A stretch of DNA of 12,371 bases from an uncultured delta proteobacterium (GTDB lineage: Bacteria; RBG-13-61-14; DRUE01). This document shows, one piece after another, positions 895-12,371 of the stretch. Location: NCBI GenBank assembly GCA_903930515.1, contig CAIYYW010000127.1:1-12371 (forward strand), given 5' to 3'. The notes beneath the pieces were generated by a model. The model worked only from the letters and a program-made list of their open reading frames with translations, had not been told where the DNA came from and did no database searches. The first letter of the stretch is position 1, and each line of letters begins with the position of its first letter. Made by a program: the position numbers and the translations under genes.

Positions 895-1323
895 TTACTT
901 CTTCGGCGGCATCACCTTCATACTGCCCTCAACCACCACCTCGCCGCGCTGGTTCAACCATTCCAGCTTCATAATCACGATGTTCTTGTCCATTATTTTC
1001 TCAGACACCGTGGCGGTGGCGGTGATGGTGTCCCCGATCTTAACCGCAGCCTTGAATCTGGATTCGCCGGCATAGGCGATGGAGCCCATCCCCGGCAGCT
1101 TCATCCCGATCACCGGCGCCATCAATCCCTGCACCAGAGAGCCGTGCGCGATCCTTCCCTTGAAGATCGTCTGCTTCGCGTATTCCTCGTTGATATGGAT
1201 CGGGTTGAAATCACCGGTGATCCCGGCGTATAGAACTATGTCCGTCTCCGTGATGGTCTTGGTCTGAGACGCGCTTTCCCCGATCTCCAACTCCGCAATA
1301 CTCTTTCCCAATGCGTATTCCAT
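895..1323 (-). CDS. MaoC-like (R)-specific enoyl-CoA hydratase, copy A
   Basis: A single hot-dog-fold MaoC dehydratase of 142 residues, the normal length of PhaJ-type enzymes, which hydrate 2-enoyl-CoA to 3-hydroxyacyl-CoA in the cytoplasm. The hydratase-2 motif is visible as YAGITGDFNPIH, with catalytic Asp38 and His43, followed by GRIAHG (His60-Gly61). The start is the ATG at 1323, not the upstream in-frame codon at 1362. A strong GGAGG lies just before 1323, whereas the 13 extra residues would be translated from a palindromic repeat. It is the last gene of the operon. It is about 75% identical (about 106 of 142 positions, counted by eye, ungapped) to the gene immediately upstream, so the two arose by tandem duplication. 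They might form a hetero-oligomer as MaoC pairs such as ChsH1/ChsH2 do, or have split substrate ranges. A FabZ-like role is less likely given the catabolic context. Confidence 0.9.
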   Translation of the reverse strand: MEYALGKSIAELEIGESASQTKTITETDIVLYAGITGDFNPIHINEEYAKQTIFKGRIAHGSLVQGLMAPVIGMKLPGMGSIAYAGESRFKAAVKIGDTITATATVSEKIMDKNIVIMKLEWLNQRGEVVVEGSMKVMPPKK

Positions 1324-1337
1324 CTTTTTCCTCCTTC

Positions 1338-1362
1338 GTGGCGCGGACACTCCTGTCCGCAC
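1338..1362. repeat. Intergenic palindrome, family A
   Basis: GCGGACA (1343-1349) and TGTCCGC (1354-1360) pair perfectly around a 4-base loop, within a GTGGCGCGGACA context. It lies 15 bases upstream of the copy A MaoC start, before its ribosome binding site. Confidence 0.8.
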
Positions 1363-1427: not shown

Positions 1428-1859
1428 TCATAATTTCTTCGGAGGCATCAGCTTCACCGATCCCTCCATCACCAATTCCCCCCTCTGGTTCTTCCACTCC
1501 GCCTTCATCACCACGATATTCTTCTCAACTATTTTCTCGGCCACCGTGGCCGTAACCGTGATGGTGTCCCCGATCCTGCCCGGAGCCTTGAACCGGACCG
1601 TCCGCTCCAGGGCGATCGTTCCCGGACCCGGCAATTTCATCCCCACCACCGGCGCGATCAACCCCTCAATCAATCCCCCGTGCGCAATCCTGCCCCCGAA
1701 CCGGGTGGTCTTCGCGTATTCCTCGTTGATGTGCATCGGGTTGAAATCCCCGGTGATCCCGGCGTAAAGAACTATGTCCGTCTCCGTGATGGTCTTGCTC
1801 TGGGACGCGCTCATCCCGATCTCCAGTTCGTTTATGCTCTTTCCCAATGGAATTTGCAT
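1428..1859 (-). CDS. MaoC-like (R)-specific enoyl-CoA hydratase, copy B
   Basis: A 143-residue single-domain MaoC hydratase. It carries the same motif block as its neighbour: YAGITGDFNPMH with Asp38 and His43, then GRIAHG. The start at ATG 1859 is supported by AAAGGAGA about 8 bases upstream. The C-terminus MPPKKL matches that of copy A plus one Leu. Most differences from copy A lie in residues 50-95, which include the region after the catalytic helix that shapes the acyl pocket in this family. That fits a divergence in substrate choice, though this is inference. Its upstream neighbour is the BKACE gene, 55 bases away, with a family A palindrome in the gap. Confidence 0.9.
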   Translation of the reverse strand: MQIPLGKSINELEIGMSASQSKTITETDIVLYAGITGDFNPMHINEEYAKTTRFGGRIAHGGLIEGLIAPVVGMKLPGPGTIALERTVRFKAPGRIGDTITVTATVAEKIVEKNIVVMKAEWKNQRGELVMEGSVKLMPPKKL

Positions 1860-1914: not shown

Positions 1915-2754
1915 CTAAATACCGATAATTTCCTTCGTTTCCTCCACACTCGCCGCCTCCTTGCCCATCCCTTCAATAATTTTCACCGCAGCGCTCACGA
2001 GTTCGGCGTTGGATTTGGCGAGCACTCCGCGCTTCAAATAAATATTGTCTTCAAAGCCCACCCTCAAACCGCCGCCCGCGGATACCCCGGCCGCGCCTAA
2101 ACTGAGCTGATGCCTGCCGATCGCGATCACCTGGAAGGTGGAATTTTCCGGAAGGTCTTGAATCAGGATCGCGAGGTTTCGGAGACTGGGCTGGATTCCT
2201 CCGAGCACGCCCATCACAAAAGAGAAACGATAGGGCGGATCCGCCAGTCCCGGCTTGATCAGCAATTGGATCACATTATTGATCATACCCAGATCGTAAA
2301 TTTCAAACTCGGGCTTCACCTTCAATTCCTTCATCCGCTTCGCGAACAACTCCATCACCTCGGGCGGGTTCGGGAAAAGTTTTCTTCCGAAATTCATGGA
2401 GCCGGCGTTGAGCGAAGCCGAATCCGGTTTCAATTCTTCCACGGCTTTGAGCCGGGCTTCCGGCCCGAGTCCGAGGGTGGTTGCGCCTCCGCCGGTGGTG
2501 ATCTGGGTGATGATCGGGCAGCGCCGCCGCACGGCCGCTAAATACGCCCTGAAGACTTCCAGGTCCGAAGTCGGCTCGCCGGTCTCGGGATTTCTCGCGT
2601 GAAGATGCACCACACTCGCTCCCGCGTCATAAGCCCGTTTGGACTCCTCCCCAACCTCCTCCGCACTGATCGGAAGATAGGGGGTATCCTTGCGGCTGGG
2701 GATGCTCCCGGTCGGAGCCACCGTGATGATCACCTTGTCTCTCAGGTCAGCCAT
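1915..2754 (-). CDS. BKACE-family 3-keto acid cleavage enzyme (DUF849)
   Basis: BKACE enzymes, of which 3-keto-5-aminohexanoate cleavage enzyme (Kce) is the prototype, condense a 3-keto acid with acetyl-CoA and release acetoacetate plus a new acyl-CoA. The protein has 279 residues, the family length. It opens with VIITVAPTG, carries the zinc-ligand motif VVHLHAR (His50 and His52), a SLNAGSMNFG motif, and the C-terminal GGLRVGFEDN block with the third zinc ligand Glu235. The start is ATG 2754, preceded by AAGGAG at a 6-base spacing. The in-frame extension to 2799 reads into a palindromic repeat and is rejected. The neighbours do not include lysine-fermentation genes (kamA, kamDE, kdd, kal) or carnitine genes, so the specific 3-keto acid is unknown. 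Family assignment is very secure; substrate is open. Confidence 0.92.
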   Translation of the reverse strand: MADLRDKVIITVAPTGSIPSRKDTPYLPISAEEVGEESKRAYDAGASVVHLHARNPETGEPTSDLEVFRAYLAAVRRRCPIITQITTGGGATTLGLGPEARLKAVEELKPDSASLNAGSMNFGRKLFPNPPEVMELFAKRMKELKVKPEFEIYDLGMINNVIQLLIKPGLADPPYRFSFVMGVLGGIQPSLRNLAILIQDLPENSTFQVIAIGRHQLSLGAAGVSAGGGLRVGFEDNIYLKRGVLAKSNAELVSAAVKIIEGMGKEAASVEETKEIIGI

Positions 2755-2770
2755 CTCAATCTCCTTGAAT

Positions 2771-2799
2771 TCGTGGCGCGGACACTCTTGTCCGCGCAC
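2771..2799. repeat. Intergenic palindrome, family A
   Basis: GCGCGGACA (2776-2784) and TGTCCGCGC (2789-2797) form a perfect 9-bp stem around CTCT. It sits about 16 bases upstream of the BKACE start, just before its ribosome binding site. Confidence 0.82.
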
Positions 2800-2826: not shown

Positions 2827-3975
2827 CTACTTGAACTCTCGGAAAAGCTCGCGCGCGATGATCACCTTTTGGATCTCGGTGGTTCCGGCGCCGATTTCAA
2901 GCATGCGCGCGTCCCGGTAATATCGCTCAATCGGGTATTCCTTCATATAGCCGTAACCGCCGAAGACCTGGAGGCCGTCGTGGACCGCGTGCTGGACCAT
3001 CCGGCTTGCGTAATACTTGATCATCGCGGCTTCCTTGGTCACCTTTTTTCCGTTCATCACCATCCAGACCACCTTGTAGGCAAAGGTGCGCGCCATCTCC
3101 ACCCCGGTGGCGATCCGGGCGAGTTTCTCCTGAATCAACTGATACTCCGCGATCGGTTTTCCAAATTGCGCGCGTTCCAGGGCGTATTTGGTCGCCACCT
3201 CCAGAGCGGCCTGGGCGATCCCGATACTGCTGAAGGGCGTGAGCGACCGCTCGACATCGAGCGACGCGAACATCTGATGGAAAGCCCGGCCGGGCGCGCC
3301 CAAAACATAATCCTGGTGCACCCGCAAATCCTCCATAAAAACTTCCCCGGTCGGAGAGCATCTCCCGCCCATCTTATTGAACTTTTTCCCGGTGCTCAGT
3401 CCCTTCATCCCGCGCTCAAGGATGAACGCGGTCCCGCCCTCCATCCGCTTGCTCCCGGGCTCGCGCGTGAGCATCACGAAATACTGCGCCTCCGGGGCGT
3501 TGGTGATGAAGGTCTTCTGGCCGTTCAAAATAAAGTAGTCGCCGTCCTTCACGCAGGACGACTTGATGCTGAGCGCGTCGGAACCGCTTCCCGGCTCGGT
3601 CAGGCACCAGCACCCGAGAACCTCGCCCCGGCAGATCGGGGGCAGATATTTTTTCTTCTGGTCCTCGGTCCCGTGCTTGTTGACATTGTTGCAGAAAAGC
3701 AGGTCGGCCGCGTTCAAAGAAAGGTTGAACCCGAAGCAGGCGCGCACGAATTCCTCGTAAATGATCGCCTTGGAAAACAGGTCTCCGCCCGCGCCCCCGT
3801 ATTCCGCCGGCAGATACGACCCGACCAGCCCGAGTTGCCCGGCCTTTTGATAAACCCCCCACGGAAATTCCTGGGTCTCGTCAAGCTCCTGCGCCTTAGG
3901 CGCCAGCTCGATGTCGCAGAATTTCCGGACCTGATCCTTGAGCATCAGATGCTCGTCGCTTAAATTGTAATCCAT
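2827..3975 (-). CDS. Acyl-CoA dehydrogenase with isovaleryl-CoA-dehydrogenase-type catalytic base
   Basis: A 382-residue flavoprotein of the acyl-CoA dehydrogenase family, which introduces the 2,3-double bond of an acyl-CoA and hands electrons to ETF. The N-terminal helical domain carries LPAEYGGAG (55-63). The FAD/substrate strand motif CWCLTEPGSGSD is at 122-133. The C-terminal signature GGYGYMKEYPIERYYRDAR is at 339-357. At the usual base position the motif is GAGTTEIQ, with Ala363 where MCAD-type enzymes have Glu. A Glu occurs instead at LDVER (Glu242) on the helix that carries the base in isovaleryl- and long-chain enzymes, and the flanking LEIGAGT is also IVD-like. An active enzyme with a branched-chain or bulky substrate is therefore likely. 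The ATG at 3975 has AAAGGA upstream. It lies between the CoA-ligase and BKACE genes. Confidence 0.93.
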   Translation of the reverse strand: MDYNLSDEHLMLKDQVRKFCDIELAPKAQELDETQEFPWGVYQKAGQLGLVGSYLPAEYGGAGGDLFSKAIIYEEFVRACFGFNLSLNAADLLFCNNVNKHGTEDQKKKYLPPICRGEVLGCWCLTEPGSGSDALSIKSSCVKDGDYFILNGQKTFITNAPEAQYFVMLTREPGSKRMEGGTAFILERGMKGLSTGKKFNKMGGRCSPTGEVFMEDLRVHQDYVLGAPGRAFHQMFASLDVERSLTPFSSIGIAQAALEVATKYALERAQFGKPIAEYQLIQEKLARIATGVEMARTFAYKVVWMVMNGKKVTKEAAMIKYYASRMVQHAVHDGLQVFGGYGYMKEYPIERYYRDARMLEIGAGTTEIQKVIIARELFREFK

Positions 3976-4020: not shown

Positions 4021-4042
4021 CGCGCGAGGGACTTTAGTCCCG
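4021..4042. repeat. Palindrome, family B, overlapping a stop codon
   Basis: GGGACTTTAGTCCC (4028-4041), adjacent to the previous palindrome. On the minus strand its centre contributes the TAA stop codon (4034-4036) and the final Asp codon of the CoA-ligase gene. Confidence 0.8.
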
Positions 4043-4900
4043 ATTCCTTTTATAATAATCGCGCATTTTCGCCAGCACGAACACGGCGTCTTCGGCGCTG
4101 TCAAAAAACGGGTATTTGCTCCCCGCCATAACTTGTTCCTTGGAATGATAGGGCATGGCGAAGGCGAACCCGACCGGCTTGTTGGCCAGGTCCACGGTTT
4201 CATTGAACTCGGAGACCAAGTCGCGCTGGAGCTGGTTCAAGGTCGGGTACAACTTCAATACTTCCGGATCGCGATAGATATAAGCCATTGCCAGGCCGTC
4301 GTATTCCTCGCGGATCAGGAGTTCACGCAGAAAAGTCCGTTGGGTCTCGGCGCTGTAAAGGTCGCCGAAGTCAAGCGGGTTTCGGAACTCAATGATTCCG
4401 GCGCGCCGCTTCCGGGAATATTTTTCCACGAGGTCCGCGGGGATGGGCGGCAGTTCAAACCCGTGTTTCCAGGCCAGGTCCGCGAGCATCACCGAATATC
4501 CTCCGCTGGGCGAGATGATCAGGAGACGGTTTCCTTTCATTGCGGGAAGCGAGAAGGCCCGGGCCAGGTTCATCATCTCGGCCAAGGATTTCACCCGGAT
4601 CACCCCGGCCTGTTGGAATGCGCCGTCCATCACCAATTCATCGTTCCGGAGCGCGGAGGTATGGGAGTTGGCCGCGGCCTCGCCATAAGGACTGATGTTC
4701 GCCTTGAAAACGATCACCGGTTTTTTCGCGCGTTTCGCGGCTTCCAGGAATTCCCGGCCCCGGCGCAAGTCTTCCAGGTAAACGCAGATCACGCTGGTGT
4801 CCGGGTCCTCGGCCAAATATTCCAGGAAATCCACTTCATCCAAAACGGTTTTGTTGCCGAGGCTCACGAATTTTCCCAGCGGGAACGCGTCAATGAACAT
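4034..4900 (-). CDS. Acyl-CoA synthetase (NDP-forming) alpha subunit, C-terminal part after frameshift
   Basis: This frame carries the second and third domains of an ADP-forming acetyl/acyl-CoA synthetase alpha subunit, which makes acyl-CoA from an acid, CoA and ATP through a phosphohistidine. It begins at KFVSLGNK, the strand-turn shared with succinyl-CoA ligase alpha. ANSHTSALRND follows, with His80 of this frame as the expected phosphorylated His. Then come LLIISPSGGYSV and the Succ-CoA-ligase-like domain to the end. No ATP-grasp (beta) domain follows, so a separate beta subunit must exist elsewhere. The ATG at 4900 is an internal Met of the original gene and has no ribosome binding site of its own. 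The stop TAA at 4034 lies within a family B palindrome. Without the frameshift this would join the preceding frame into about 463 residues, the usual alpha-subunit length. Confidence 0.85.
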   Translation of the reverse strand: MFIDAFPLGKFVSLGNKTVLDEVDFLEYLAEDPDTSVICVYLEDLRRGREFLEAAKRAKKPVIVFKANISPYGEAAANSHTSALRNDELVMDGAFQQAGVIRVKSLAEMMNLARAFSLPAMKGNRLLIISPSGGYSVMLADLAWKHGFELPPIPADLVEKYSRKRRAGIIEFRNPLDFGDLYSAETQRTFLRELLIREEYDGLAMAYIYRDPEVLKLYPTLNQLQRDLVSEFNETVDLANKPVGFAFAMPYHSKEQVMAGSKYPFFDSAEDAVFVLAKMRDYYKRNRD

Positions 4901-5424
4901 TTTGGTGGAAAGGGTGTCCCGACCCCGCCGCTCTGGGAGAGGAACGCGATCTTTCCGGAGGGCGGCCGGTCCAGGGGCATAAACGATAGGGCCAGCCCGT
5001 TTTGAGTGTTGGCGGTGGCGATCCCGTTCGGGCCGACCACCAAAAGATTCTTTTCGCCGCAGATTTTTTTCACCTGCTCCGCCAGTTCAATCCCTTCGGG
5101 TTTTCCGGTTTCTTCAAAGCCCGCGCTGGAGATGGCGATGTGTCTGATCCCGTGCCTGGCGCAGTCCAAAAGGATTTCCGGCGCGAGCGCTCCCCTGGTG
5201 AAGATCAGGGCCAGGTCCGGCTTTTCCGGAAGCTGGTCCAGAGAGGTGAAAATGGGGACGCCGTCATTCTCTCCCGCGGTCGGGCTTAAGCCGAAAATTT
5301 TTCCGGTATAGCCCCAGCGCTTGCAATTGGAAATGATATTCCTGGCCAGGTTGCTCGGATTGGGCGACAGCCCGAAAATAACCACGCTCCGGGCGTTGAA
5401 GAACTGGTCAAACTCCTTTTTCAT
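4864..5424 (-). CDS. Acyl-CoA synthetase (NDP-forming) alpha subunit, N-terminal part, frameshifted
   Basis: The CoA-binding Rossmann domain of the same synthetase. It has VVIFGLSPNPSN near residue 14, GPNG at 131-134, and the SQSGG motif at 163-167 that precedes the second domain. After SQSGGVG the frame leaves the family pattern, reads about 17 unrelated residues and stops at 4864. The family pattern resumes in the other frame at about 4905. The net shift equals one lost base or two gained bases. A single base missing near the CCC run at 4918-4920 would restore the usual 19-residue spacing between SQSG and FVSLGNK, so I favour that. I chose ATG 5424; the frame upstream of it translates a palindrome. 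No strong ribosome binding site is adjacent (AAGGAG lies about 15 bases away). Recent pseudogene or sequencing error are both possible. Confidence 0.85.
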   Translation of the reverse strand: MKKEFDQFFNARSVVIFGLSPNPSNLARNIISNCKRWGYTGKIFGLSPTAGENDGVPIFTSLDQLPEKPDLALIFTRGALAPEILLDCARHGIRHIAISSAGFEETGKPEGIELAEQVKKICGEKNLLVVGPNGIATANTQNGLALSFMPLDRPPSGKIAFLSQSGGVGTPFPPKCSLTRSRWENS

Positions 5425-5458
5425 CTGTGCTTTCTTGAACTCCTTGCCATATTTCGCG

Positions 5459-5493
5459 GTGCGGACATCCCGCGTATTCCGCGGGATCCGCAC
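5459..5493. repeat. Long intergenic hairpin upstream of the CoA-ligase gene
   Basis: GTGCGG (5459-5464) pairs with CCGCAC (5488-5493), and ATCCCGCG (5467-5474) pairs with CGCGGGAT (5480-5487). The loop is 5 bases and there is a 2-base bulge. It occupies the same position relative to the next gene as the family A palindromes and begins with a similar GTGCGGAC. It looks like a diverged or extended member. Confidence 0.75.
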
Positions 5494-5580: not shown

Positions 5581-6726
5581 TTACTTGCCGAAAATCTCCC
5601 GGGCCACAATCACGCGATGGATTTCCGGCGTGCCCTGGGCCGCGATCCAGGCGAGGGCGTCGCGGCATTGGCGCTCGACCGGGTATTCGACATCGCTGCC
5701 GTAGCCGCCCAGGATCAGGTTTGCCTGTTCCACCGCGCGCATCATGACTCGGCCAGCCAGGATCTTGGCCATGCTGGTTTCCTTGCGGTGGTCCACCCCG
5801 CGCTCGCTCAGGACCGCGGCGCGCAAGGCCATCAGCCGGGCCGCGTCAATCTCGGAGGCGATTTCCGCGACCGGGAAGGAGATGCCCTGGTGCTTGTAAA
5901 TGGGCGTTCCCGCGATCACGCGCTCCTTGGCGAATTTGACCGCGACTTCCAGGGCGGCCCGGGCCAGACCGATGTGTCCGAAGCTCAAGCTGATCCGGGT
6001 GTTGCTGAGCACTTTCAGCGCGAGTTTAAGCCCGTCGCCCTTGCCGCCGATGCGGTCCGCGTCCGGGACGAACAGGTTGTCCAGCTTCAGTTCATACGCG
6101 CGATGACCTTTCAAACCGCATAGCACATTGTGTTTGTCCAGGATCAGGCCCTTGGTGTTCTTGTCCACAATAAAAGCGCTCACGCCCTTGCCGCCCGAAC
6201 CGGGTTCCTCGTTCGCGAACAGCGCGAAAATGTCCGAGAAGTCGGCGTAGGAGATCAAACGCTTGCGGCCGTTGAGCAAAAAGCCCTTGTCGGTCTTGGT
6301 GGCGCTGGCCTTCATGCTGGCCGGGTCGGAGCCGGAGGCCTCGTCGGTGAGCGCGTAACAACCGACCTCTCCGGAGGCGATCCTTCCCAGGAACCGCTTT
6401 TGCTGCTCGTCGGTCCCGCCCAGCTTGATCACATAAGTATAGAGCTGGGCGATTTCCAAAAACGGGATCAGGGCCGGACAGCCGTAACCGATCTCCTCGG
6501 CAATGATGCAGACATCCACCTTGCCGATCTCATAACCGCCGAATTTCTTGGGCACGCTGAGCGCCGGCAAATGGAACGGGTCCTTGGTCAGTTTCTCCAC
6601 CAGGTCCTTGGGGATCCGGTCGTTGTCGTCAATCTCCTTCACCCGGGGCATCACAAATTCCTTTACCAATGCCCGGTATTTCTCCCGCAACCCCAACTGT
6701 TCCTTGGTGTAAAATGTTTCAGCCAT
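5581..6726 (-). CDS. Acyl-CoA dehydrogenase lacking a recognisable catalytic glutamate
   Basis: A 381-residue acyl-CoA dehydrogenase fold. It has VPKKFGGYEIG (58-68), CYALTDEASGSD (123-134), LNGRKRLIS (151-159) and the C-terminal GGYGSDVEYPVERQCRD (340-356). The usual base motif EGTSEIQ reads QGTPEIH, so the catalytic Glu is Gln364. The alternative helix position used by isovaleryl-CoA dehydrogenase reads SNTRI, with Thr243. No carboxylate is therefore seen at either known site. It may be a non-catalytic partner in an alpha2beta2 dehydrogenase, like the paired FadE/ChsE steroid enzymes, or use another residue. The start is ATG 6726 with a very strong GGAGGAGG upstream. The in-frame extension to 6771 crosses a palindrome and is rejected. 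It lies between a DUF35 gene and the CoA-ligase gene. Confidence 0.9.
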   Translation of the reverse strand: MAETFYTKEQLGLREKYRALVKEFVMPRVKEIDDNDRIPKDLVEKLTKDPFHLPALSVPKKFGGYEIGKVDVCIIAEEIGYGCPALIPFLEIAQLYTYVIKLGGTDEQQKRFLGRIASGEVGCYALTDEASGSDPASMKASATKTDKGFLLNGRKRLISYADFSDIFALFANEEPGSGGKGVSAFIVDKNTKGLILDKHNVLCGLKGHRAYELKLDNLFVPDADRIGGKGDGLKLALKVLSNTRISLSFGHIGLARAALEVAVKFAKERVIAGTPIYKHQGISFPVAEIASEIDAARLMALRAAVLSERGVDHRKETSMAKILAGRVMMRAVEQANLILGGYGSDVEYPVERQCRDALAWIAAQGTPEIHRVIVAREIFGK

Positions 6727-6740
6727 TTTCCTCCTCCTTT

Positions 6741-6769
6741 TCGTGGCGCAGGCACTCTTGCCTGCGCAC
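6741..6769. repeat. Intergenic palindrome, family A, compensated variant
   Basis: GCGCAGGCA (6746-6754) and TGCCTGCGC (6759-6767) pair perfectly over 9 bp around CTCT. Compared with the GCGCGGACA copies, two base pairs differ and both arms have changed together. Confidence 0.82.
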
Positions 6770-6790
6770 AATTAAATTTTCTTCCTTTCT

Positions 6791-7319: not shown

Positions 7320-7796
7320 TTACTCCACCGGCTGAAACCATTTAATATCGCTCAGTTTGCCTTCCCGCTCTTGGTTGAACACCGCTTCCATCCTCATACC
7401 GACCCGGAGTTTCTTGGGGTCGTTCTCGGACAGGAAATGCTGGATCCGGGAATCGGCATGGTCCAGCCGGATCAGGCCGTATCCATAAGGGACCGGTCTT
7501 TTCTTTCCGGTCATCGGGTCCAGGAAACCGAAAAAAACCACGGTGAAACATTCCAGCACTCCCCCCGGTCCGACCTCCACCCACTCGTCGGTCGGCGCGA
7601 AGCAAGGACCGCAAACCGGACGGGGCGGGATATAAACCTTCTTGCAGCGCGGGCATTTCCTGCCGTAAATCTTTTTCTCGTCCCGCAACTTTTTGAAAAA
7701 GAAACTCCCGATCTTTCCGCAGGAATAGTTATACGGGAAATTCGCCGGGGCGCTCATCTCCAGCAATTCAATTTGCCTGCCCGCCTGTTCCATCAT
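7320..7796 (-). CDS. DUF35 zinc-ribbon/OB-fold protein (thiolase partner), first of two
   Basis: A 158-residue DUF35 protein. The zinc ribbon is CPRC (Cys48, Cys51) and CGPC (Cys62, Cys65) around YIPPRP, followed by an OB fold to the SDIKWFQP end. The N-terminal segment with PYNYSCGKIGSFFFKKLRD matches the helix that docks on thiolases in this family. The stop codon of the upstream thiolase-fold gene is separated from this ATG by one base (TGAGATG), so the two are almost certainly translationally coupled and form one complex. A second ATG follows directly and could be the real start. It is paralogous to the next gene downstream but has an insertion in the OB domain (DPMTGKKRPVPYG). Confidence 0.92.
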   Translation of the reverse strand: MMEQAGRQIELLEMSAPANFPYNYSCGKIGSFFFKKLRDEKKIYGRKCPRCKKVYIPPRPVCGPCFAPTDEWVEVGPGGVLECFTVVFFGFLDPMTGKKRPVPYGYGLIRLDHADSRIQHFLSENDPKKLRVGMRMEAVFNQEREGKLSDIKWFQPVE

Positions 7797-7797
7797 C

Positions 7798-8952
7798 TCA
7801 ATCCCTTTCCAAAATCGTGATCTCGGTCCAGAAGCTCCCTCCGAACCCGGTGGCCAGCGCGGTCTTGGCGCCCGGGACCTGCCGGGCGCCTCCTTTTCCC
7901 ATCAACTGGATCGCGGCTTCGGCCACCCGGATCATCGCGGTGGCGCCGATGCAGTTGGTGGAAATGACCCCGCCGGAGGGATTAACCGGAAGCTCGCCGG
8001 TCATCTGGGTCGCGCCCGAGTCCATCAGCTTCCCGCCCCCGCCCAGTTCGCATAAGCCGAGCGCCTCGTACCAGGAAAGCTCGGCAAAGGTGCAAGGCTC
8101 ATAAAATTCCGCGACATCCAGTTCCTTGATCGGATTAACGATCCCGGCCTGGGCATAGGCGTCCTTGGCCGCGTCCCGCAAGGTCCTCATATTGATCAGC
8201 AACGGCAGGTCCGAGTTAAAGGGCTGGTCGTGCCGGGTGGACAGGGCCTTGAACCAGGCCGGCCGGTTCGGGCTTTTCTTTTTCGCAACCTCCTCGCTCG
8301 CGACGATGATGGCGCAGGCCCCGTCTGAGGTTGGGCACATATCCATCAGCTTGATCGGGCTTGCGAGCATGGGCGAGCTGAGCACATCCTGGACCGTGAC
8401 CGCTCTCCGGAGATGGGCATGGGGATTGTTCAGGGCGTTTCCGCGGTTCTTCACCGCCACCCGGGCCGCCTGTTCCTCGGTGATCCCGAACTTGTTCATA
8501 TATTCGCTCGCGGCGAGCGCGAAGGTCCCGATCGCGCCGGCCATATTGGACCTCTCAAAGAGCGGGTCGGACTGGAAGATCAGGCCCGCGGTGGTGTCTC
8601 CGTCCGACTGCTTTTCCCAGCCGATGCAAAGGACGCAGTTGAACATTCCGCTCGCCACATGATAGTATCCGGCATGCGCCACGCTCGCGCCGGTGGTTCC
8701 GCCGGTGGTGATCTTCATCGCGTGCTTGAGATACGCCCCGGTCTCGGCCGCGGCCCAGAGGTCCGCGTTATACACTCCCTCAAAATGCTCCATATTTCCG
8801 ATCAACACCGCGTCCAGGTCGGCTGGGCTCATCTCGGCGTCTTGGAGACAGGCGGAGACCGCCTCGTGGATCAGTTCCACAATGTTGACATCGCGCCGCC
8901 GGGATTTGTGAAAAGTCTGCCCGGTGGCTATGATTGCCGCTCTTCCAGCCAT
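7798..8952 (-). CDS. SCP2-type thiolase-fold protein without thiolase catalytic residues (aldolase candidate)
   Basis: A 384-residue thiolase-superfamily protein of the SCP2/lipid-transfer type. Fold markers include the N-terminal AIIATGQT, NPSGG (324-328) and GATAMIRVAEA. The catalytic residues are absent. The nucleophile motif CASG reads GTTG (Gly85-Gly88), the HDCF box reads YEPC (284-287), and the His of GHPxGAT reads Asn333 in STNCIGAT. Ltp2, the actinobacterial steroid side-chain aldolase, also lacks the Cys and works with a DUF35 domain. The one-base overlap-like junction with the following DUF35 gene supports a similar complex. A degenerate thiolase with altered chemistry remains possible. 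The ATG at 8952 has only a weak GGTGAG upstream. It acts in the cytoplasm, presumably on a 3-hydroxyacyl- or 3-oxoacyl-CoA. Confidence 0.88.
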   Translation of the reverse strand: MAGRAAIIATGQTFHKSRRRDVNIVELIHEAVSACLQDAEMSPADLDAVLIGNMEHFEGVYNADLWAAAETGAYLKHAMKITTGGTTGASVAHAGYYHVASGMFNCVLCIGWEKQSDGDTTAGLIFQSDPLFERSNMAGAIGTFALAASEYMNKFGITEEQAARVAVKNRGNALNNPHAHLRRAVTVQDVLSSPMLASPIKLMDMCPTSDGACAIIVASEEVAKKKSPNRPAWFKALSTRHDQPFNSDLPLLINMRTLRDAAKDAYAQAGIVNPIKELDVAEFYEPCTFAELSWYEALGLCELGGGGKLMDSGATQMTGELPVNPSGGVISTNCIGATAMIRVAEAAIQLMGKGGARQVPGAKTALATGFGGSFWTEITILERD

Positions 8953-8965
8953 AATTATTTCTCAC

Positions 8966-8989
8966 CGCAAAGGCGCAAAGAACGCAAGG
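8966..8989. repeat. Triple CGCAAAG tandem motif
   Basis: CGCAAAGG, CGCAAAGAA and CGCAAGG follow one another in the 67-base gap between the two thiolase-fold genes. I recognise 'CACCGCAAAGGCGCAAAGAACGC'-type runs as a dispersed intergenic repeat in many environmental genomes, but only this copy is visible here. Confidence 0.5.
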
Positions 8990-9019
8990 AAATTTTTGGA
9001 ATCTGTAATTTGCAATTCA

Positions 9020-10168
9020 TCATTTTCCGCTCAGCGCTATCACGCATTGGCTCTGTCCGCACGGCCCGTAAGAGCCTTGGGCCAGCGCGGTCTTGACCTT
9101 TTTTTCCACCTGATGTTTTCCGGCCTCGCCCCGGATTTGTTTCGCGGCCTCAATCACGCGGGTCAGGCCGGAAACGCAAAGCGGGTTCCCGCCCAAAACC
9201 CCGCCGGAAGCATTGATCGGCTGGCCTCCCTTGGGATCGCTTTTTCCGGAATCCATCAGCGCCGCTCCTTTGCCGGCATCGCAGAGCCCGAGCGCTTCCG
9301 GATATTGAAGCAGTTGATATCCGAAATAGTCGGAAAGCTCAATCAGGTCCAGCTCCCGGCCCGGGTCTTTGATCCCGGCCATCCGGTAGGCCTTGGCAGC
9401 GGCCTCGGACAATGCCCTCGCCTCGGCCAGGTCGCGGTCGCCCAGGAAATAGCTGTCCATTGATACGCCCGCGCCTTTGATCCAGACCGGCCGGTCAGTC
9501 CACTTCTCCGCCACTGACTCGCGCGCGAGCATGAGCGCGCAGGCCCCGTCCGCGGGCGCGAACACCTCAAGCCGGTGGAGCGGGCTGGCCAGCATCTGCG
9601 AATTCAAAACTTCTTCCTGGCTGGTTTTTTTACCGCGAAAAACCAGCTCGTTTTTAGCCGCCTGGGTCAGGGCTTTGGCCGCGGCCTCCGCCATTTTTTC
9701 CGCGGGGATTCCATTCCGGCGCAAATACCTTCGCGCCTGGAGCGCGCCGGAATTGATCTCGTCCAACCCGAGCGCGCGCTGGAAGAATGGATCAAACATC
9801 GCGTTGGCGATGACATTCTGCGAACCTTCGCTCATCTTGGCGTGGGCGACCACCAGGCAGGTCTGATACTTGCCGGAGAGGATCCGCATCATCCCGTAAA
9901 AAACCGCCTGGGTCCCGTCCCCGGCGACCTTGGCCTCGGACTTGAGATATGCCCCCTCGGCCTCCGGCACGGTGCGGCTGGAGATGGTCCTTCCGTCCAG
10001 GTAATCCTGGGAGCAGGACACGATGTTGTCCACTTGCTTGATCTCCATCCCCAGCTGATTGAGCAGGCCGGAGGTCGCCTGATACACCAACTCGGTGATG
10101 TGATCCTCGCGCTTCTCGGCCTGATATGAGGTCTGGAACACGCCGACAATCGCCACCCGTTCAGTCAT
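9020..10168 (-). CDS. Thiolase-fold protein without thiolase catalytic residues, second paralogue
   Basis: A 382-residue thiolase-superfamily protein. The fold is shown by VAIVGVFQT at the start, the NQMLASPLHRLEVFAPADGA region, NASGG (319-323) and a GNPLCVSG loop. The catalytic Cys position reads Ala82 (AGDG), the HDCF box reads SDYF (279-282), the catalytic His reads Asn328, and the C-terminal Cys-X-Gly is replaced. It is clearly diverged from the neighbouring thiolase-fold gene, so the pair may form a heteromer with the two DUF35 proteins, one thiolase per DUF35. It is the first gene after the promoter at 10201-10229. ATG 10168 lacks an obvious Shine-Dalgarno sequence, which suits a short 5' leader of about 25 bases. 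A direct thiolase role is unlikely; aldolase or structural roles are inference. Confidence 0.88.
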   Translation of the reverse strand: MTERVAIVGVFQTSYQAEKREDHITELVYQATSGLLNQLGMEIKQVDNIVSCSQDYLDGRTISSRTVPEAEGAYLKSEAKVAGDGTQAVFYGMMRILSGKYQTCLVVAHAKMSEGSQNVIANAMFDPFFQRALGLDEINSGALQARRYLRRNGIPAEKMAEAAAKALTQAAKNELVFRGKKTSQEEVLNSQMLASPLHRLEVFAPADGACALMLARESVAEKWTDRPVWIKGAGVSMDSYFLGDRDLAEARALSEAAAKAYRMAGIKDPGRELDLIELSDYFGYQLLQYPEALGLCDAGKGAALMDSGKSDPKGGQPINASGGVLGGNPLCVSGLTRVIEAAKQIRGEAGKHQVEKKVKTALAQGSYGPCGQSQCVIALSGK

Positions 10169-10311: not shown

Positions 10312-11472
10312 TCAAAAGGTCAACTCATCCTTGAGCACCGACCTGGAAATCACCAGCCTTTGAATCTCGCTGGTGCCTTCCACGATCCGGTACAGGCGCA
10401 GGTCTCGGTAATAGCGTTCCACCTTGGCCTCCACCATATATCCCATTCCTCCGTGGATCTGGAGCACGCGGTCGGCGACCTTGCAGGCCATCTCGCTGGC
10501 GTAGAGCTTGGCCATAGAGGCGAGCGCGGACTGGCGTTCTCCGGAATCGTATCGGAGCGCGGCGTCAATCATCATACAGTCTGCGGCGTAAATCTCGGTG
10601 GCGCAGTCGGCGAGCATCCACTGGATGGCCTGGAAATCCGCAATCGGTTTTCCGAACTGCACCCGGATCTTGGCGTAATCCGATCCCATCTTCAAAAGCT
10701 TCTCGGCGTAACCGATACAGCTCGCGGCCAGGGTGACGCGCCCGATGTCCAGGGTCTTCATCGCGGTGCGGAATCCCTCTCCCACCTTGCCGATCACATT
10801 TTCCTCCGGCACCCGGCAGTCCTCAAAGATCACCTCGGACTGGACCATGGCCTTGCTTCCCATATGCTGATGGAGCTGTCCGATCTTGAGACCGGGCGTG
10901 CCCTTTTCAATAATGAACGCGGTGATCCCGCCCTTGGTCCGCTTTTCCTTGTCGCTGAGCGCGAGCACCGTGAACACATCCGCGATCGGGGCGTTGGTGA
11001 TGAAATGCTTCAAGCCGTTGACCACCCAGAACTTGCCGTCCTTGACCGCGGTGGTGGTCATTGAGGCTGCGTCCGAACCCGCGCCCGGCTCGGTCAGGCA
11101 GAAGCAGGAAAGTTTTTTACCGCTGGAGAGGTCCGGGAGAAACCTTTGCTTCTGCTCCTCCGATCCGGAGAGCAGGATGGCTTGGCTTCCGATCCCGTTG
11201 TTGACCGCAATCAGGGAGCGGAACGCGCCGTGTCCCCACGAAAGCGCCTTGGCCACCAGGCAATAGCCGGTGGCGCCGATCCCCAGTCCGCCGTATTCGG
11301 TCGGGATGGTCATCCCGTAAAGGCCCAGGTCGCGCACCTTCTGCACAACCGGCTCGGGTATTTTTCCCTGCTGTTCAATCAGCTCGTCAATCGGCTCGCA
11401 ATCCTTTTTTACAAATTTCCTGACGGTATCCACAAACTCCAGGATCTCCTTGGGTATCGCCGCCTTATACAT
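10312..11472 (-). CDS. Acyl-CoA dehydrogenase with canonical catalytic glutamate
   Basis: A 386-residue acyl-CoA dehydrogenase. It has PTEYGGLGIG in the N-terminal domain, CFCLTEPGAGSDAASM for FAD and acyl binding, FGKPIADFQAIQW in the C-terminal helical domain, and IHGGMGYMVEAKVERYYRD. The usual base motif VEGTSEIQR is intact, with Glu365 as catalytic base. Of the three dehydrogenases here it is the most conventional short/medium-chain type. The ATG at 11472 is preceded by GGGAGGG five bases away, a strong ribosome binding site. It is followed by 143 bases containing the main operon's promoter. It may therefore be transcribed separately from its own upstream region, with or without read-through. 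Confidence 0.93.
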   Translation of the reverse strand: MYKAAIPKEILEFVDTVRKFVKKDCEPIDELIEQQGKIPEPVVQKVRDLGLYGMTIPTEYGGLGIGATGYCLVAKALSWGHGAFRSLIAVNNGIGSQAILLSGSEEQKQRFLPDLSSGKKLSCFCLTEPGAGSDAASMTTTAVKDGKFWVVNGLKHFITNAPIADVFTVLALSDKEKRTKGGITAFIIEKGTPGLKIGQLHQHMGSKAMVQSEVIFEDCRVPEENVIGKVGEGFRTAMKTLDIGRVTLAASCIGYAEKLLKMGSDYAKIRVQFGKPIADFQAIQWMLADCATEIYAADCMMIDAALRYDSGERQSALASMAKLYASEMACKVADRVLQIHGGMGYMVEAKVERYYRDLRLYRIVEGTSEIQRLVISRSVLKDELTF

Positions 11473-12086: not shown

Positions 12087-12371
12087 TCACGGGCCAAATC
12101 CGATCACATCTACCGGAACATTTCTATAAGTATTTTTCCCATTCCCAAGCTGACCATAATAATTATAGCCCCAACACTTTACTCCCCCGACAGAGTTAAG
12201 AGCGCAGGTATGCCAACCACCAGAAGACATTGCGCTTACCCCTGAAGATAGGCCGGAAACATTAACCGGAACCTTGCTATCGGCTTTTTTCCCATTCCCA
12301 AGTTGACCATATTCATTATACCCCCAGCACTTTACTCCGCCGCTGGAGGTAAGGGCACAGGTATGCTGACC
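12087..12371 (-). CDS. RCC1-repeat protein, C-terminal end
   Basis: The minus strand from the right edge to the TGA at 12087-12089 codes 94 residues containing two copies of a 51-residue repeat. Each has HTCAL, then [16 protein letters not shown] and VPV.V in that order, which is the bacterial form of the RCC1 beta-propeller blade. Bacterial RCC1-repeat proteins are usually large, secreted or surface-anchored, with a Cys pair in each blade (HTCAL and VKCW) as seen here. Their functions are mostly unknown. The start and any signal peptide lie outside the window, and the protein is probably several repeats longer. The last blade stops soon after [10 protein letters not shown]. It has no evident link to the acyl-CoA operon, and its codons are more AT-rich. 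Confidence 0.85.

Follow-up and report, generated by a model that had tools for sequence, protein, structure and literature searches.

In this study, we have examined a 12,371-nucleotide stretch of DNA from an uncultured delta proteobacterium (contig CAIYYW010000127.1 of assembly GCA_903930515.1; hereafter the window), and in particular four adjacent genes on its minus strand encoding two thiolase-fold proteins, here called T1 and T2, and two DUF35 proteins, DUF35a and DUF35b. T1 and T2 very probably descend from the Ltp3-Ltp4 kind of enzyme described in actinobacteria, and we lean towards reading the cassette as a retro-aldolase (acyl-CoA aldol-lyase) of that kind, heteromeric and independent of Cys. 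The evidence that carries this reading is the gene layout, the folds, the conservation of residues, the descent and the co-divergence of the two proteins; from it we infer the complex, its activity, its substrate and the roles of its subunits. A retro-aldolase had already been proposed in an earlier note on this DNA, and, judged from the sequences, this appears to be the best-supported function. The four genes are:

10168-9020, minus strand: T1, Ltp4-type thiolase-fold subunit of 382 amino acids, with Gly85, a conserved Asp84, SDYF and Asn328 (Pfam, profiles, tree, model)
8952-7798, minus strand: T2, Ltp3-type thiolase-fold subunit of 384 amino acids, with Gly85, His180, Tyr284 and Asn333 (Pfam, profiles, tree, model)
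7796-7320, minus strand: DUF35a, zinc-ribbon OB-fold partner with a C4 zinc motif (Pfam, a-type profile)
7258-6803, minus strand: DUF35b, the other zinc-ribbon OB-fold partner, belonging to a separate b type, with a C4 zinc motif (Pfam, b-type profile)

T1 and T2 each match Thiolase_N and Thiolase_C_1, and both DUF35 proteins match zf-ChsH2 and OB_ChsH2_C (Pfam). The stop codon of T2 (TGA) and the ATG of DUF35a are separated by a single G, which is the one-base junction noticed before. DUF35b falls just beyond the range (7320-10168) of the earlier note, whose assignment of two DUF35 partners to the unit is supported. The claim that both large proteins keep the thiolase fold also stands: the predicted models are complete two-domain thiolase folds (predicted local distance difference test, pLDDT, 90.4 for T1 and 87.3 for T2), each with 6esq as its best structural match (Z about 53, over 374-376 residues). 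The top matches are archaeal acetoacetyl-CoA thiolase and SCP2 thiolase, Sal and Ltp2 follow at Z of about 45-46, and PhlC is also among them; in such models, the fold alone cannot tell a thiolase from an aldolase. The structure look-up found no solved structure close to Ltp3 or Ltp4.

The descent of T1 and T2 was read from a tree of 61 rows, which included Ltp2-like rows and left out full-length Sal, Ltp3 and Ltp4 of Rhodococcus rhodochrous, and PhlA/PhlC. T1 groups with Ltp4-type genes (support 99/96), while T2 groups with Ltp3-type genes, modestly as a strict group (79/50) and at 98/95 with three further rows. A branch with support 100/97 sets T1, T2, Ltp3 and Ltp4 apart from Ltp2 and the Cys thiolases, and T1 and T2 grouped in the same way in an earlier tree that lacked Ltp2 and contained more long branches. 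A Nocardia protein that passes the PRK07855 cut-off, carries the motif YDHF and has a MaoC-DUF35 frame as neighbour was taken as Ltp2. The position of Ltp2 across the 100/97 branch, with the Cys thiolases, rules out Ltp2 as the nearest precedent, the place it had been given before.

Gene order points the same way as the tree. In Tsukamurella and Streptomyces clavuligerus, a protein of 309-339 amino acids (309-340 over the actinobacterial loci) with two DUF35 OB domains (OB_ChsH2_C) is followed by a PRK07937 protein and then a PRK08313 protein, and these actinobacterial PRK07937 (Ltp4) and PRK08313 (Ltp3) proteins score over the NCBIfam cut-offs. The Tsukamurella cluster, which also encodes an AMP-binding enzyme and a protein scoring over the EchA19 equivalog cut-off, agrees in gene order with the Rv3521-Rv3522-Rv3523 locus of Mycobacterium tuberculosis, where Rv3522 is ltp4, Rv3523 is ltp3, and fadD19 and echA19 lie nearby (PMC6429209). 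According to the available excerpts of the literature, Ltp3 and Ltp4 are required for branched, not straight, sterol side chains (PMC6273163), are described as aldol-lyases for C24-branched side chains (PMC6273163, PMC4761994) and, in a review, form a heteromeric aldol-lyase (PMC6678751); two of these three sources, in the same excerpts, name Wilbrink 2012. The combination of two thiolase-fold and two DUF35 proteins, presented before as an arrangement not known, thus already exists in actinobacteria. Its widespread non-actinobacterial version is, as far as we could find, apparently unstudied, and our literature search for two thiolases with DUF35 in anaerobes found no paper.

Both systems consist of a pair of Cys-less thiolase-fold genes from two sister lineages next to a DUF35 pair, which is a fused double gene in the actinobacterial locus and two separate genes here. 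Ltp3-type genes agree with T2 in having Gly in place of the Cys, Tyr at the position of the HDCF His and Asn at that of the GHP His, and the Ltp4-type subunit shares with T1 a conserved Asp near the elbow. Ltp4-type sequences, unlike T1, have His where T1 has Ser, and the sterol locus has EchA19 and an AMP-forming ligase, whereas the window has MaoC hydratases, an ADP-forming ligase and a beta-keto acid cleavage enzyme (BKACE).

We matched residues across proteins via sequence and profile alignments and counted conservation over 35 paired T1/T2 sequences. The nucleophilic Cys, the HDCF His and the GHP His are all gone from both proteins, in agreement with the manual alignment of the earlier note: the HDCF box has become YEPC in T2 and SDYF in T1, and the GHP His is replaced by Asn333 and Asn328, respectively. 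The check for a Cys and His in the active site, made by alignment, gave none of the classical residues. In T2, the Cys position is Gly85 in all paired sequences, and the losses are fixed across the T2 family. Gly85 of T2 had been identified correctly; the matching position of T1 had been placed at Ala82, which is probably wrong because the profile-profile alignment (probability 100) sets Gly85 of T1 opposite Gly85 of T2, with the placement around a deletion in T1 being unsure. Neither residue is a Cys, and the Cys-less conclusion is unaffected.

The loss of catalytic residues is less complete than first claimed. Of 34 T2 sequences, 33 keep Tyr284, which stands where Sal and Ltp2 have their base, and all 34 keep Asn333 and His180. 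In T1, the residue facing Tyr284 is not conserved (S12 Y9 H5 T4 L2 A2 in 35 sequences); T2 is therefore probably the catalytic subunit, and T1, judging from the alignments, a specialised, non-catalytic or regulatory partner. This makes it doubtful that the two are equal aldolase-like subunits. At the GHP His, T1 sequences are also mixed (N18 H9 D3 of 35), while Asp84, just before Gly85, is kept in 33/35.

Three characterised systems help to place these residues. Sal-Shy(DUF35), the bile-acid aldolase of Comamonas testosteroni (CtSal; 9MYR), resembles T2 in combining a thiolase fold with DUF35 and in having Gly in place of the nucleophile; Gly85, Tyr284 and Gly372 of T2 align with Gly89, Tyr302 and Gly391 of CtSal, Gly89 being assigned from the description in PMC12329534, as the Sal alignment begins downstream. 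Tyr302 and Cys304 are essential in CtSal (PMC12329534). Sal differs in having a single thiolase-fold subunit as a central dimer, a DUF35 fused to a MaoC hydratase, and Cys304 where T2 has Pro286. The steroid aldolase Ltp2-ChsH2(DUF35) (6OK1) likewise shares with T2 the fold, a DUF35, a Tyr base (YDHF) and the lack of a nucleophilic Cys, but its base/acid pair is Tyr294 and Tyr344 (PMC12329534), the latter facing Asn333 in T2, and it too has one thiolase-fold subunit. With the Tyr base and the Gly and neither acid, T2 therefore resembles an aldolase in its base but not in its acid. The (S)-2-benzoylsuccinyl-CoA thiolase BbsAB (7PXP) also combines a thiolase fold and DUF35, in anaerobes, but BbsB keeps the Cys, HDAF and GHP, whereas T1 and T2 keep none of these and score far under the BbsB NCBIfam cut-off. 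A thiolase of the BbsAB or another SCP2 type was ruled out by this loss of the Cys and both His, and thiolase chemistry in T1 and T2 is unlikely.

The association of T1 with T2 is seen well beyond the window. The four-gene cassette occurs in many bacteria and some archaea of several phyla, and three times in the window's genome. Among the loci that we examined, T1 and T2 lie next to each other on one strand in 36. Relatives of T2 are found in Desulfobacterota, Acidobacteriota, Euryarchaeota, Bacillota and other lineages, and a Cupriavidus plasmid holds relatives of both T1 and T2. Counted as matches, T1 and T2 genes number 3/3 in the window's genome, 3/3 in a congener and 5/5 in another genome of the same order (G002). 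The distances of T1 and T2 are correlated (r 0.841 over 32 pairs; 0/2000 permutations as high, maximum 0.345), a statistic that still includes shared species history. Between the congeners, dN/dS is about 0.14 for T1 and about 0.18 for T2, indicating purifying selection, which together with the conserved cassette (36 pairs) rules out pseudogene decay. Plasmids of Rhodococcus (L029:7090-8004) and Simplicispira (L061:5072-5983) carry shortened (about 304 amino acids), very divergent T1-like partners beside an intact T2-like protein, as if the partner subunit were undergoing reduction.

The two DUF35 proteins are of distinct types, a and b, as separated by profiles built from loci with the order T1-T2-a-b only and then tried on loci with the order b-T1-T2-a. 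In five of the latter, which lay outside profile building (L019, L022, L024, L026 and L028), the gene before T1 was called b and the gene after T2 was called a; the separation is weaker among distant and fused forms. An a-type gene directly follows T2 in most separate-gene cassettes, and a b-type gene directly precedes T1 in the b-T1-T2-a loci. T1 and T2 are probably each paired with their own DUF35 protein. Two Acidobacteriota DUF35b proteins (L022:6343-6801 and L026:6362-6811) showed no C4 zinc motif. At L093:3430-4461, a 344-amino acid protein that combines an SCP2 domain with a DUF35 OB domain adjoins a T1/T2 pair.

Alternatively, T1 could join DUF35b, and T2 DUF35a, in two independent homomeric aldolases, each an alpha-beta-beta-alpha assembly like Sal or Ltp2 and acting on successive or different substrates. 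The flanking positions of the b and a types would fit, Sal/Ltp2-type enzymes are built from one thiolase-fold subunit and one DUF35, and T1 does have Tyr at the base position in 9/35 sequences. We nevertheless consider it unlikely, as that position is unconserved in T1 and near-invariant in T2, T1 and T2 are equal in number per genome and co-diverge, and ltp3 and ltp4 are both reported, in the excerpt available, as necessary for one process (PMC6273163). It is less likely still that both proteins are non-catalytic, serving to bind acyl-CoA or as scaffolds for the dehydrogenases and hydratases. All classical thiolase residues are lost, and for two of the three cassettes in the window's genome we found no catabolic neighbours, as this explanation would allow; a pure scaffold, though, would have no need to keep Gly85, Tyr284, Asn333 and His180 of T2 over several phyla, and Tyr284 corresponds to a residue essential in CtSal.

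In the PhlABC/MucABC acyltransferases, too, a DUF35 protein accompanies two thiolase-fold proteins, PhlABC consisting of an active and an inactive member of the thiolase superfamily plus a DUF35 protein (PMC2954200), and PhlC is one of our structural matches. A multi-component C-acyltransferase or synthase of this type is very improbable here: PhlC-type subunits keep the catalytic Cys, a PhlC-like subunit listed in the PDB as its C88S variant points to Cys88 as key, and T2 has Gly there, so that no acyl-enzyme is expected at this position; further, PhlABC and MucABC perform biosynthetic acyl transfer, whereas the dehydrogenases and hydratases of the present operon suggest degradation. About equally improbable is a thiolase or Claisen enzyme of an unusual sort that relies on another Cys (such as Cys206 or Cys287 of T2 or Cys370 of T1), since, for all its complete thiolase fold and the invariance of T2 Cys206 in a 26-row alignment, both catalytic His positions are replaced (Tyr284, Asn333), Cys206 is not a replacement nucleophile because ordinary SCP2 thiolase and BbsB have it too, and Cys287 of T2 (F12 C6 A5 Y5 S5) is unconserved, with Cys370 of T1 at 22/35.

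Given descent from Ltp3-Ltp4, a retro-aldol function is reasonably likely, and a heteromeric retro-aldolase could work as follows. The acyl-CoA dehydrogenases would give a 2-enoyl-CoA, the MaoC hydratases would turn it into a 3-hydroxyacyl-CoA, and T2 would split the C2-C3 bond to release acetyl- or propionyl-CoA and an aldehyde or ketone. On the 3-hydroxyl, Tyr284 of T2 would serve as base, the substrate and the enolate would be held by backbone amides near Gly85 and Gly372, and the invariant His180 is one candidate for the proton donor. T1 would be the structural or regulatory partner in a thiolase-fold heterodimer flanked by both DUF35 proteins, so that the complex would correspond to the alpha-beta-beta-alpha assembly of Sal-Shy(DUF35) in heteromeric form. 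Aldol cleavage would help where a tertiary 3-hydroxyl bars oxidation, as in the Ltp2 route, where dehydrogenation and hydration lead to a tertiary alcohol and then to aldol cleavage (PMC11321319). The substrate here would be some 3-hydroxyacyl-CoA. The organisms and operons in which the cassette is common show no visible sterol link, no search aimed at sterol-ring genes having been made in the window's genome.

A number of observations weigh against the heteromeric retro-aldolase. The acids of both Sal (Cys304) and Ltp2 (Tyr344) are missing from T2 (Pro286, Asn333), so that catalysis must differ in detail and neither mechanism is transferable. T1 scores 163 against the PRK07937 cut-off of 419, and T2 376.1 against the PRK08313 cut-off of 514; they are therefore related to, and not inside, these sterol subfamilies. 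The actinobacterial genes were called Ltp3 and Ltp4 by family models and gene order, not via the R. rhodochrous sequences, and the activity of Ltp3-Ltp4 itself rests on genetic support in the excerpts of the sources cited. In G002, the closest copies of T1 and T2 are on separate contigs, the co-divergence has its component of species history, and the two cassettes mentioned above are not beside beta-oxidation genes.

As a more tentative extension, the cassette may represent a class of heteromeric 2+2 retro-aldolases that is widespread among archaea, acidobacteria and uncultured anaerobes, acting on non-steroid 3-hydroxyacyl-CoAs (e.g., beta-branched acids with tertiary alcohols). Such a class would have a third solution for a thiolase-fold active site, placed in one subunit (Tyr284 as base, invariant Asn333 and His180, neither the Sal nor the Ltp2 acid), with an Asp84-bearing twin as partner. 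In the literature excerpts cited, Ltp3-Ltp4 is treated as an actinobacterial sterol enzyme, whereas the cassette is common and at times present in several copies per genome. If it is a true retro-aldolase, beta-oxidation gains a bypass for non-oxidisable tertiary 3-hydroxyacyl-CoAs, and many genes labelled acetyl-CoA acetyltransferase or thiolase are misannotated. T1 and T2 also offer a tractable case of a duplicated enzyme dividing into a catalytic and a partner subunit.

The cassette belongs to a single minus-strand run that also contains the following genes:

10312..11472, minus strand: acyl-CoA dehydrogenase 1 (ACAD1), upstream of T1; the congener shares the order ACAD1-T1-T2
5581..6771, minus strand: acyl-CoA dehydrogenase 2 (ACAD2)
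4034..5493, minus strand: ADP-forming acyl-CoA ligase, alpha-type (CoA_binding and Succ_CoA_lig), with a frameshift near 4867-4900 in the assembly
2827..3975, minus strand: acyl-CoA dehydrogenase 3 (ACAD3)
1915..2799, minus strand: BKACE-type enzyme (PF05853)
1428..1859, minus strand: MaoC-type enoyl-CoA hydratase 1
895..1362, minus strand: MaoC-type enoyl-CoA hydratase 2

Over 43 loci surveyed for neighbours (the window and 42 others, a few overlapping or from one genome), the families that recurred beside the cassette were acyl-CoA dehydrogenases (18 loci), AMP-forming ligases (14), crotonases (11), MaoC hydratases (8), short-chain dehydrogenases/reductases (6) and 3-hydroxyacyl-CoA dehydrogenases (5). 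The earlier note had argued for aldol cleavage from the lack of a 3-hydroxyacyl-CoA dehydrogenase nearby. There is indeed none in the window; the argument is weak because the genome has a FadB/J-like one elsewhere and five cassette loci carry such an enzyme. Near another cassette copy of the same genome, a few genes away, lies a molybdopterin oxidoreductase (L095:9974-12103).

In the congener, the genes are split over two contigs, ACAD1-T1-T2 and DUF35a-DUF35b-ACAD2-ligase-ACAD3-BKACE-MaoC. Its CoA ligase is one intact frame of 463 amino acids (L105:2911-4302), compared with the frameshifted one of the window, where the frameshift is either a strain-specific loss or an assembly error. Between ACAD2 and the ligase, the congener has a 540-amino acid carboxylesterase (PF00135; L105:4337-5959) with an apparent signal peptide, missing from the window, which could hint at an ester substrate. 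The tandem MaoC hydratases of the window are close relatives of one another. For the phylum of the window's organism, the collection contains just three species genomes. Finally, RCC1-like repeats are encoded at 12087-12371, in an open frame running past the end of the window.

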